From contig CADBCY010000006.1 in assembly GCA_902793325.1 (NCBI GenBank), positions 62,001 through 126,000 of the forward strand: a stretch of DNA of 64,000 nt, in the 5' to 3' direction. Below are positions 2,155-63,936 of the stretch, piece after piece. The notes beneath the pieces were generated by a model. The model did no database searches. It was not told the DNA's origin and worked only from the letters and a program-made list of their open reading frames with translations. The translations under genes and the position numbers were made by a program. The DNA comes from an uncultured Eubacteriales bacterium (GTDB lineage: Bacteria > Bacillota > Clostridia > Christensenellales > Aristaeellaceae). Position 1 is the first letter of the stretch. The number at the start of each line of letters is the position of its first letter.

Positions 2155-2441
2155 TTGCGCGCACGGGGGAAGTCATGCTATAATGATTAGGCAACCGGCG
2201 CGAAGCGCGGTTGGCCGGGTCGGCGGGCAAGGGAGCGAAGCGAGTTGCGCAGCACGCCGACAATCATGGTATAATGATTAGGAAAACCGAAGGTTTTCCG
2301 GGTCGGCGGGCAAGGGAGCGAAGCGAGTTACGCAGCACGCCGACAATCATGGTATAATGATTAGGAAAACCGAAGGTTTTCCGGGTCGGCGGGCAAGGGA
2401 GCGAAGCGAGTTGCGCAGCACGCCGACAATCATGGTATGAT
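2155..2441 (+). promoter_or_regulatory. four reiterated promoter-like sites inside the repeat array
   Basis: -10 boxes lie at 2179-2184, 2270-2275, 2353-2358 (all TATAAT) and 2436-2441 (TATGAT). Matching -35-like TTGCGC or TTACGC boxes lie at 2155, 2245, 2328 and 2411, with spacings of 18, 19, 19 and 19 bases. All point right, so each transcript would begin just before hairpin 1. The 19-base spacing is longer than ideal, so activity is uncertain. Confidence 0.55.
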
Positions 2442-2507
2442 GATTAGGCAACCGGCGCAAAGCGCGGTTGGCCGGGTCGCCGGGCCGCAAAGCGAGCACG
2501 GCGACAA
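2173..2507 (+). repeat. tandem array of four promoter-plus-hairpin units
   Basis: Four head-to-tail units start at 2173, 2264, 2347 and 2430 (91, 83, 83 and 78 bases). Each unit opens with TCATGSTATAATGATTAGG (one unit has TATGAT), then a short hairpin, then a second hairpin closed by GTCGSCG/CGSCGAC, and ends in ACAA. In units 2 and 3 hairpin 1 is GGAAAACC-GAA-GGTTTTCC. In units 1 and 4 it is a longer stem built on CAACCGGCGC with loop GAA or AAA and GCGCGGTTG. Stem sequences differ between units while pairing is kept. Neighbouring AATCAT and ATGATT also form a small palindrome around the -10. The array lies between the zinc-ribbon gene's terminator and the acetyltransferase gene. It is not a CRISPR, because there are no unique spacers. 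Function unknown. Confidence 0.9.
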
Positions 2508-2555: not shown

Positions 2556-2990
2556 ATGAACATCAAGATCCGCAGGTGCATGATCTCCGACGCCCACCGC
2601 ATCTACGAGCTCTGCCGCGAGCTGCTGGGCTACGACTTCACCGAGGAGCAGGTCACCGCCAACGTCCGCCGCATGATCCGCTCGGAAAACAACCTGCTGC
2701 TGGTGGCCGAACAGGGCGACGAGATCCTGGGCTTCGTCCACGCCCACAACCACGAGCCGGTCTACGCCCCGCAGATGAAGAGCATCGTGGCGCTGGCCAT
2801 CGACCCCTCCAGCCAACACCAGGGCCTGGGCCACCTGCTGGTCGGCGCGGTAGAGGACTGGGCGCGGGAATGCGGCGCCGCGGGCGTGCGCGTGAACTCG
2901 GGCGAGATGATGACCGACGCGCTGGGCTTCTACAAGTCCCTCGGCTACGAGTACATCAAGACCCAGTACAACTTCCGCAAGATGCTGTGA
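2556..2990 (+). CDS. GNAT-family N-acetyltransferase
   Basis: 144 aa. A typical GNAT domain fills the protein: N-terminal strand IRRCMISDAHRIYELC, a central strand ending ALAIDPSSQ, and the acetyl-CoA loop QHQGLGHLL, matching the Q/R-x-x-G-x-G/A signature. It should transfer an acetyl group from acetyl-CoA to an amine; the substrate cannot be told from sequence. The C-terminus GFYKSLGYEYIKTQYNFRK is the usual end of this fold. It is the first gene after the promoter-hairpin array, whose last unit ends about 50 bases upstream, so transcription may come from the array. No strong independent promoter was seen closer to the start. Confidence 0.9.
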   Translation: MNIKIRRCMISDAHRIYELCRELLGYDFTEEQVTANVRRMIRSENNLLLVAEQGDEILGFVHAHNHEPVYAPQMKSIVALAIDPSSQHQGLGHLLVGAVEDWARECGAAGVRVNSGEMMTDALGFYKSLGYEYIKTQYNFRKML

Positions 2991-7801: not shown

Positions 7802-7814
7802 GATAAAAAATGAA

Positions 7815-7991
7815 GATCGATAGAGGCGCGGGGTCGATGAGTCGCGCGGCGGAGCTCCTCCAGGGGCAGCGAAACCGCACAAAAGGCGAACCCGCCGAAA
7901 TCCGGGGCGCGCTGGAGCCGCCGCGGGTTGGGGCGCCGGAGAACATGCGGCGCACTGTCACAATGTGCATTGTGGAGCGCTATCTCTGATC
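7815..7991 (+). ncRNA. lysine riboswitch (L box) aptamer
   Basis: The leader matches the L-box pattern: 5' GATAGAGGCGCG, the GGCGAACCCGCCGAAA segment corresponding to the conserved GCGUCGCCGAA region, GGGTTGGGGCGCC, and the 3' closing strand GTGGAGCGCTATCTCT, which pairs with the 5' GATAG. Known L boxes control lysine synthesis and lysine uptake genes by premature termination. Here the aptamer is followed directly by a terminator hairpin and a polar amino acid ABC operon. Identification is by eye from remembered consensus elements; a covariance search with the Rfam lysine model would settle it. Confidence 0.88.
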
Positions 7992-8117: not shown

Positions 8118-8924
8118 ATGAAGAGAATCGTCACCATCCTGCTGGCCGCCGTGCTGCTGCTGTCCGCCTGCGCCTTCGCCGAGGGTACCTTCCGCGTGGG
8201 CATGGAATGCGGCTATCCGCCCTTCAACTGGACCCAGGTCGAGCCCGACGAGAACAGCGTTCCCATCGACGGCGGCATGGGCTTTGCCGGCGGCTACGAC
8301 GTGGAGATCGCCAAGCAGATCGCGTCCGCGCTGGACAAGGAGCTGGTGGTCGTGAAGATCGAGTGGGACGGCCTGATCCCCGCCCTGCAGTCCGGCATGA
8401 TCGACGCCGTCATCGCGGGCATGTCCCCCACCGCCGAGCGCAAGGTGACCGTGGACTTCACCGACGCCTATTACAACAGCGACCTGGTGGTCGTCGTGCG
8501 CAAGGACAGCCCCTTCGCCGCGGCCAAGACGCTGAAGGACTTCAACGGCGCCAAGATCACCGGCCAGTTGAACACCTTCCACTACACCGTCATCGACCAG
8601 CTCGAGGGCGTGAACAAGCTGCCCGCCATGGAGACCTTCCCGGCGATGACCGTGGCCCTGTCCTCCGGCGCCATCGACGGCTACATCTCCGAGCGTCCCG
8701 GCGCGGTGTCCGCCTGCGCCGCCAACGACGACTTCACCTACGTGGTGTTCGAGGACGGCGGCTTCTCGGCCTCCGTGGAGGAGACCTCCGTGGCCGTCGC
8801 CGTGAAGCAGGGCTCGGACGAGCTGATCGCCCAGATCAACGACGTGCTCGCCGGCATCGACACCGACACCCGCAACGCCATCATGGACGCGGCCGTGCTG
8901 AACCAGCCCGTGACCGCGGAATAA
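8118..8924 (+). CDS. amino acid ABC transporter substrate-binding protein (predicted lysine)
   Basis: 268 aa. The leader ends LLLSACAFAEG, giving a usable lipobox (LSAC) and so probably a lipoprotein; an AFA/E cleavage site is the alternative. The mature part is an SBP_bac_3 domain: FRVGMECGYPPFNW, GGYDVEIAKQIA, WDGLIPALQSGMIDAVIAGM and FTDAYYNSDLVVVV are the standard elements of polar amino acid binding proteins. The family alone does not fix the substrate, but the lysine riboswitch directly upstream makes lysine, or another basic amino acid, the best prediction. A hairpin follows the stop codon, then the permease and ATPase genes. Confidence 0.93.
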   Translation: MKRIVTILLAAVLLLSACAFAEGTFRVGMECGYPPFNWTQVEPDENSVPIDGGMGFAGGYDVEIAKQIASALDKELVVVKIEWDGLIPALQSGMIDAVIAGMSPTAERKVTVDFTDAYYNSDLVVVVRKDSPFAAAKTLKDFNGAKITGQLNTFHYTVIDQLEGVNKLPAMETFPAMTVALSSGAIDGYISERPGAVSACAANDDFTYVVFEDGGFSASVEETSVAVAVKQGSDELIAQINDVLAGIDTDTRNAIMDAAVLNQPVTAE

Positions 8925-40511: not shown

Positions 40512-40526
40512 GCCCTTTATGATCAT

Positions 40527-40892
40527 GTGAGCGGCGTCTGTAAGCCGAGTTCTGTATTGGACGGTCATCTATCTGGGCCTGCGGTTGCCAGCAGGCTCTA
40601 GCGATTACCCGGAAGCGCGACGGGCCGCCGCCGGGGGAAACCCGAGGGTTCCGCCCCATGCTTCCCTATCAATCTTGCACCAGGTGGGGTTTACAGCGCG
40701 GGCCAGTCGCCAGGCCGCGGGTGAGCTCTTGCCTCGCCTTTCCACCCTTGCGTCTTCCGAAGAAGATTCGCGGACTATTTCTGTTGCACTTTCCTTGGAG
40801 TCGCCTCCACCGGCAGTTAACCGGCACCCTGCCCTGCGGTGCTCGGACTTTCCTCAAGCGCTGACGCGCCTGCGACCGTCTGGCGCCCTCAC
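40527..40892 (-). ncRNA. rnpB: RNase P RNA, type A
   Basis: Catalytic RNA that removes tRNA 5' leaders. On the minus strand the 5' part holds GAGGAAAGTCCGAGC and the 3' part ACAGAACTCGGCTTAC, the universally conserved pairing that forms the P4 core; the P1 helix is closed by GTGAGGGCG and CGCCGCTCAC (with one bulge). Ends are set from P1 and may be a few bases off. It lies after the zinc-ribbon coiled-coil gene, in the conserved order seen in many Firmicutes. The 3' side leads into a run of short hairpins. Confidence 0.95.
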
Positions 40893-63777: not shown

Positions 63778-63936
63778 ATTCTAACACCTCACATTCCGTC
63801 CAGGATTAACGGCATTCAAAAACCCTTGCGCAAGACGCAAGGGCGGTGTATGATCCAACCATTGCGCCTCGGCGAGCGACCCGAAGGCCATTAAGCATCG
63901 CACTCGCTGTCTATGGCACAGAGCTTTTTCAGCCAC
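63778..63936 (-). ncRNA. L10 (rplJ) mRNA leader, probable autoregulatory structure
   Basis: The ~160-base 5' leader of rplJ contains several paired stretches (around ATAGACAGCGAGTGCGATGC and TTAATGGCCTTC). Known L10 leaders in bacteria bind the L10-L12 complex to regulate the operon. The structure was not modelled, so the assignment rests on position. Confidence 0.55.
63818..63843 (-). terminator. attenuator-like hairpin in the rplJ leader
   Basis: On the minus strand CCCTTGCG-TCTTG-CGCAAGGG is followed by TTTTTG, 40 bases before the rplJ start. It could act as the attenuator of the leader. Confidence 0.75.

Follow-up and report, generated by a model that had tools for sequence, protein, structure and literature searches.

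The array of four head-to-tail units at positions 2185-2509 of the window (the whole analysed stretch of 64,000 nucleotides) probably represents a palindromic mobile element, non-autonomous and present in four tandem copies, which inserts preferentially at the 3' edge of a sigma-70-type -10 hexamer; the family is best read as a MITE/REP-like repeat. Comparison of orthologous loci at three promoters shows the element immediately behind the native -10, or one base further on, with the native promoter still in position. The unit contributes a -10 box without a -35; as an extra -10 motif often accompanies each unit, stacked copies come to resemble a promoter array.

The array lies on the forward strand directly after a promoter (2155-2184), whose -35 hexamer TTGCGC (2155-2160) stands 18 bases before TATAAT within the extended -10 TGCTATAAT (2176-2184). 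Element 1 (2185-2265; 81 nt) has a long hairpin 1 and a long hairpin 2 and is followed by the spacer ATGGTATAAT (2266-2275), a copy of the -10; element 2 (2276-2348; 73 nt) has the ends GATT/AATC, with hairpin 1 at 2281-2299 and hairpin 2 at 2302-2344, and is followed by the same spacer (2349-2358). Element 3 (2359-2431; 73 nt) differs from element 2 by one base and precedes an altered -10 copy, ATGGTATGAT (2432-2441); element 4 (2442-2509; 68 nt) combines a long hairpin 1 with a short hairpin 2. The first three are delimited by their folds and by covariance-model matches, and the fourth by its fold; the right edge ATACTAAATAAT (2510-2521) is possibly a decayed copy of the -10 segment, judging from its position only. 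A preliminary description of this region had reported four direct repeats, each preceded by a -10-like box and together adjoining an acetyltransferase gene, and its account of the layout is borne out. The start-to-start distances are 91 and twice 83 bases with a final interval of 78 (TRF score 454, 98% matches), the boxes read TATAAT at 2179-2184, 2270-2275 and 2353-2358 (each as TGnTATAAT) and TATGAT at 2436-2441, and a gene of 144 aa (2556-2990, forward strand), for which orthologs were found, begins 46 nt past the array; its name is putative, being that given by the preliminary description.

The element is built of GATTA, hairpin 1, GG, hairpin 2 and AATC, and measures 55-85 nt. The hairpins described earlier are supported by folding, as RNA folds of elements 1-4 give z-scores of -2.6, -4.0, -4.7 and -4.0 (5, 1, 0 and 0 of 200 shuffles equally stable) and element 2 folded as DNA gives -5.5; a fragment of unit 1 (2190-2252) cut short of the closing arm folds no better than shuffles. 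The stems covary, with 98% of cells paired and 16 of 20 pairs altered on both sides, which none of 500 shuffles equalled; the underlying alignment (A5) was fitted to the structure and its rows are related, and the counts therefore lean towards structure. This set comprised 119 model matches, 102 distinct rows and 64 chosen loci, some overlapping; another alignment (A2), with misplaced left ends of the long hairpins, was left out of the pair counts. The four-base ends of the 102 distinct rows also covary, as 65 GATT/AATC, 20 GTTT/AAAC and 4 GATC/GATC; terminal inverted repeats, a MITE feature, are thus present, and at four bases are very short by MITE standards. Taken together, the outer ends and two hairpins suggest a three-helix palindromic unit, the outer stem of which is not part of the minimum-energy folds. 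No significant bias towards an RNA strand is seen in the stem mismatches (29 G-T and 20 A-C cells, p = 0.25, from few events in related rows), and there is thus no sign that sense RNA rather than DNA is conserved. The array has no Rfam match at the gathering score, the best weak match having an E-value of 1.3. Elsewhere in the window Rfam identifies a lysine riboswitch aptamer (7813-7990, forward strand), followed at 8118 by a gene that by eye resembles an amino-acid ABC transporter binding protein, as well as an RNase P RNA of class A (40524-40891, reverse strand) and a ribosomal protein L10 leader (63808-63934, reverse strand).

The unit belongs to a dispersed repeat family, as had been thought possible from the window alone. 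A query including the spacer gave 25 BLAST matches at 16 sites of the host genome, for which the covariance model gave 31 matches; without the spacer, 25 of the 28 genus genomes, host included, have matches at E 0.001 among the matches listed, with up to 47 per genome, likewise among the matches listed. At family level, with a cut-off of E 1e-4, 18 genomes of the 150 sampled and 9 genera of the 50 gave matches. The order sample yielded matches in 3 of 248 genomes, namely the host, one member of its family, and a weak match in another family that was rejected on our own reading as coding sequence; no convincing match was therefore found beyond the family in these 248 genomes, searched with filters that miss weak matches. 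A -10-sited pattern recurs in 48 named contigs, all from Clostridiales, Clostridia or Christensenellaceae assemblies and several from ruminant gut. A phage or plasmid origin was considered and rejected: viral contigs contain no exact copy of the single -10-sited pattern used, and one BLAST search each of plasmids and phages gave no match. The host assembly is 95% complete, and the genomes compared are mostly fragmented assemblies. Genes downstream of the copies are unrelated to each other; the MITE features of being short, protein-free and dispersed, with filled and empty sites, are all present. A second dispersed repeat, of the GTCATTGCGAGGAG...GACGTGGCAATCCG type, occurs at about 490-590 of L139 and in the upstream region of L114, and has many matches in the genus.

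Three promoters are found both with and without the element among orthologous genes, which would be explained by insertion. Orthologs of yicC are present in 28 of 28 genus genomes, all with TAGGCAA-16-TATAAT; 4 are filled (G021, G024, G003 and the host) and 24 empty. The empty site of G016 (L271) and the filled site of G021 (L270) differ by 71 nt, which is the 61-nt element plus ATGGTATAAT: G016 reads GTGGTATAAT followed by GACCGTGG, and G021 reads GTGGTATAAT, the element, ATGGTATAAT and GAACGTGG. In G003 and the host the yicC element begins one base past TATAAT, and in G003 no -10 stands to its right. The transketolase gene (tkt) has 19 orthologs with 90-100% protein identity, 2 filled and 17 empty (L097 read by eye), with TTGTCC 18 bases before TATAAT in 13 of the 17 empty sites and in the filled copy of G003; the host's filled copy lacks this hexamer. 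The flag raised at the tkt locus L086 stems from a chance GACAATC in coding sequence. For the acetyltransferase gene, the filled site of the window stands against seven empty orthologs (61-73% identity), all without the array, in which a TTGAA-type hexamer precedes TATAAT by 17 bases in five cases and by 18 in two (spacing at L115 and L116 counted by eye), with TGCTATAAT, TGTTATAAT or TGGTATAAT at the place of the extended -10. L063 and L109, proposed as empty sites, were artefacts of a loose pattern and were excluded, as were L035:6444 and L166:623. Given the -35 and -10 at the corresponding place in the seven array-free orthologs, the first promoter of the window, TTGCGC-18-TATAAT, would most simply be the acetyltransferase gene's own; wherever the comparison can be made (yicC, tkt, acetyltransferase), alignment indicates that the left-edge promoter is the host gene's own, with the same or nearly the same spacing of -35 and -10. 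Unit number at shared sites also varies, G027 differing from G009.

Proximity to a -10 was surveyed in 89 arrays from the host and 80 regions picked from the matches listed; 70 left edges were kept, after removal of edges formed by another unit or by N, of L166, and of five sites that are orthologs of others in the list. The 48 named loci, found with a pattern that itself holds ATAAT, were left out here and used in the comparison of left and right bases and for the TATAAT background. A -10 with at least 5/6 matching bases abuts 45 of the 70 left edges (42 exact), that is 41 of 54 outside G021 and 4 of 16 within it, and TG stands one base upstream of the box in 40 of these 45; an exact TATAAT occurs elsewhere upstream at 9 of 24,885 positions. 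A -10 copy (at least 5/6) adjoins the right edge in 33 of 70. Among -10-abutting arrays, 40 of 44 have a same-strand gene start within 250 nt, compared with 20 of 44 in the mirrored control; for the sites without a -10 the corresponding counts are 12 of 25 and 13. Two of these 25 left edges have TATAAT one or two bases further away. A 59-nt subfamily in G021 (loci L137-L146) lies mostly after terminator-like hairpins (by eye) and shares the left sequence TTGGCTTGTRCAT; in this genome, 9 of the 11 listed places with 59-nt elements have TTGGCTTGT or a close variant on the left. The sister genome G016 shows a different sequence at one subfamily site; at L139 it retains a remnant of 31 nt, and the L132 site is taken up by a filler. 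With such remnant or filler a clean target duplication at the non-promoter sites of G021 is not demonstrable. The 21 places read in other genera include some -10 spacers and several arrays with other spacers away from any -10. The -10 is therefore not an obligatory target, in view of the left edges that lack it, the G021 subfamily and the arrays of other genera. By eye, some copies lie between convergent genes. An array in L018 (G000:C57), with the spacer AAGCTACAAA and no -10, stands after the end of an ObgE-like gene and before a YhbY-like gene (names by eye), and in L317 (596-659, reverse strand; G126) an element just past a start codon apparently reads through in frame (by eye).

The -10 segment to the right of the element bears on how insertion might occur. 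When the ten bases to the left were compared with the first ten after the first element at 52 sites, positions 1-4 were alike in 179 of 208 cases against 169.5 in within-genome shuffles (p = 0.0006); these 52 of 74 rows were hand-chosen, with non-promoter sites, poor right edges and orthologous sites dropped, which favours a -10 on the right. Of the left bases, 33 depart from the consensus; the same base returns on the right in 11 of these, the consensus base stands there in 19 and a different one in 3. The right -10 segment may be a target duplication with later change or ATGGTATAAT carried by the element. Outside the G021 subfamily, 15 sites lack a -10, and there the flanks lengthen the outer stem more often than expected by chance (22 against 8.6, p = 0.0001).

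The appearance of the array invites a regulatory explanation, in which serial start sites tune or count expression or the boxes titrate a DNA-binding protein. In its favour are the -10-like box ahead of each unit of the window and the internal spacers, 29 of 46 of which keep at least 5/6 of the -10 bases, 21 of these 29 with TG one base upstream; extended -10 boxes can function without a -35. The preliminary description had also assigned a -35 to every unit, and TTGCGC, TTGCGC, TTACGC and TTGCGC do stand 18, 19, 19 and 19 bases before the four boxes; a promoter role is supported for the first, by the seven orthologs, and not for the rest. The later TTGCGC is an arm of hairpin 2: it stands before all 10 internal -10 boxes located behind long-arm units, compared with 1 of 20 after other units. 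A -35 match of at least 4/6 accompanies 17 of 45 left edges, where shuffles predict 5.7, and only one of the 29 internal boxes; with no enrichment at internal boxes, the later TTGCGC lacks support as a -35, and the unit-wise pairing of -35 with -10 that a sigma-70 promoter array needs is absent. A consensus scanner found no sigma-70 promoter at its threshold over 2000-2600. As the last box of the window is altered (TATGAT) and unit number varies between relatives, a regulatory array is regarded as very unlikely; nothing in the comparisons made pointed to a regulator sponge. Of the earlier ideas, spread of the family together with a promoter of its own comes closest and is partly supported: the unit is dispersed, and in most promoter-sited arrays a -10 copy accompanies it, but the left promoter is, wherever the comparison can be made, that of the host gene. 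A purely local origin, in which the promoter region of the gene was duplicated in tandem without any mobility, accords with the single-base difference between elements 2 and 3 and with array-specific spacers in some arrays; as a full account it is refuted by the dispersed copies, which occupy 16 sites of the host genome and recur throughout the genus, with empty orthologous sites besides, and it is given hardly any credence.

A functional structured RNA, kept in 5' leaders for regulation or as a 5'-terminal hairpin that protects the mRNA and spread by selection, would account for the strong stem covariation, for the same-strand gene starts after 40 of 44 -10-abutting arrays and for the position of hairpin 1, which begins at the sixth base past the -10. 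This position would place the normal start site within about one base of the hairpin foot; the earlier claim that each transcript starts directly at a hairpin agrees with the measured distance, the start at the foot itself being a prediction. Such an RNA is nonetheless doubtful, since G-T cells do not significantly exceed A-C cells (few events, related rows), the downstream genes are unrelated and most orthologous promoters lack the element, no Rfam family matches, and copies also lie after terminator-like hairpins and between convergent genes (by eye). Somewhat less improbable, and still tentative, is membership in a REP/RAYT or IS200/IS605-derived class, in which a palindrome is moved by a Y1 (HUH) transposase and inserts 3' of its target without duplication. 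A fixed left motif, hairpins near the ends, a single orientation and no target duplication are hallmarks of the Y1 class, and the element would fit them, with no clear duplication seen; the ATTA next to hairpin 1 can, on our own reading, form base pairs with the target's TAAT. However, among the matches listed 16 of 28 genomes have the Y1 family PF01797, the five copy-rich genomes G000, G003, G005, G011 and G013 not being among them, and neither it nor PF01548 (in 9 of 28, among the matches listed) has a match in the host assembly or in several copy-rich genomes. Y1 and IS110 transposases were rejected as movers, their presence showing by eye no link with copy number. The 30 Y1 loci compared with the model gave one good copy (L250), one weak match that reads as coding sequence (L252) and, by eye, a variant copy in L242, sister to L250; none is demonstrably an element end. 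In L242 and L250 (G015 and G026) an IS200-like transposase gene with stops lies beside the element at the same place, the element variants differing; this gene was considered as a mover, but its use of the element could not be shown. The two transposase families, among the matches listed, yielded no autonomous transposon with matching ends, and by eye no GTAG or CGTC tag is present.

The favoured reading, a mobile element with a preference for the -10 edge, can be drawn out into a mechanism. The element's DNA would fold in single-stranded form as the substrate of a trans-acting enzyme, and what marks out -10 boxes as targets might be either their sequence or the strand separation in the open complex; each insertion would leave a fresh -10 as the next target, or allow units to duplicate, so that arrays would grow in one orientation. 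Local duplication probably adds units as well, since elements 2 and 3 differ at one base and unit numbers differ between G027 and G009. Insertion behind a -10 would leave the coding region untouched and may thus cost little. An mRNA initiated at the native start would have the foot of hairpin 1 at its 5' end and additional hairpins in its leader, with a possible effect of the 5' hairpin on mRNA life. A more far-reaching and rather improbable proposal is that the single-stranded element enters the melted -10 of the open complex, regenerates the -10 and so can stack, and gives the mRNA a 5'-terminal hairpin, to the profit of both partners; if so, the supply of targets would never be exhausted.

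Small repeats are common in the neighbourhood of genes, and several known families share features with this one. Like Correia elements, the MITEs of Neisseria, it is short, dispersed, mostly upstream of genes and bears sigma-70-like promoter sequence (PMC10969869). One Correia element adjoins the mtrCDE promoter on its downstream side; unlike Correia elements, which that source describes as promoter carriers, the present family keeps the native promoter, adds a -10 and forms tandem units (PMC10969869). The bcr1 and related repeats of the Bacillus cereus group are among the nearest kinds; these are larger (100-400 bp) and have another motif, with no -10 link described in the portion of the account available (PMC6542083). 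REP sequences and BIMEs are likewise small intergenic palindromic repeats, often grouped. Most REPs, though not all, bear a GTAG or CGTC tag that is unpaired, and their main location is downstream of genes (PMC3733652). Here the aligned units show no such tag by eye, and the promoter-sited copies lie upstream. The RAYT transposase (PF01797) is absent from the host assembly (95% complete) among the matches listed. BOX elements of Streptococcus pneumoniae are also stem-loop repeats with a variable number of tandem modules, but consist of boxA and boxC around boxB, whereas each unit here is complete and is followed by a short spacer, often a -10 segment (PMC3049150). YPAL of Yersinia is found at or beside targets with dyad symmetry, recalling the 15 sites without a -10 at which the flanks extend the outer stem, and has duplications of variable size; it is 168 bp long, and the available part of its description mentions neither promoter targeting nor tandem arrays (PMC2229807). 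Insertion at the -10 edge with a -10 in every unit is not described for Correia, bcr, BOX, YPAL or REP in the available parts of these sources, and no description of the present family was found in the literature, with mainly open papers searched.

A repeat placed with single-base precision behind the -10, which spares the promoter and often recreates its motif, would count as an uncommonly tame mobile element. The occurrence of 0, 1, 2 or more units at one promoter across related genomes would form a natural series, through which it becomes testable whether transcription initiation can guide DNA insertion and whether a 5'-terminal hairpin alters mRNA life in these bacteria.
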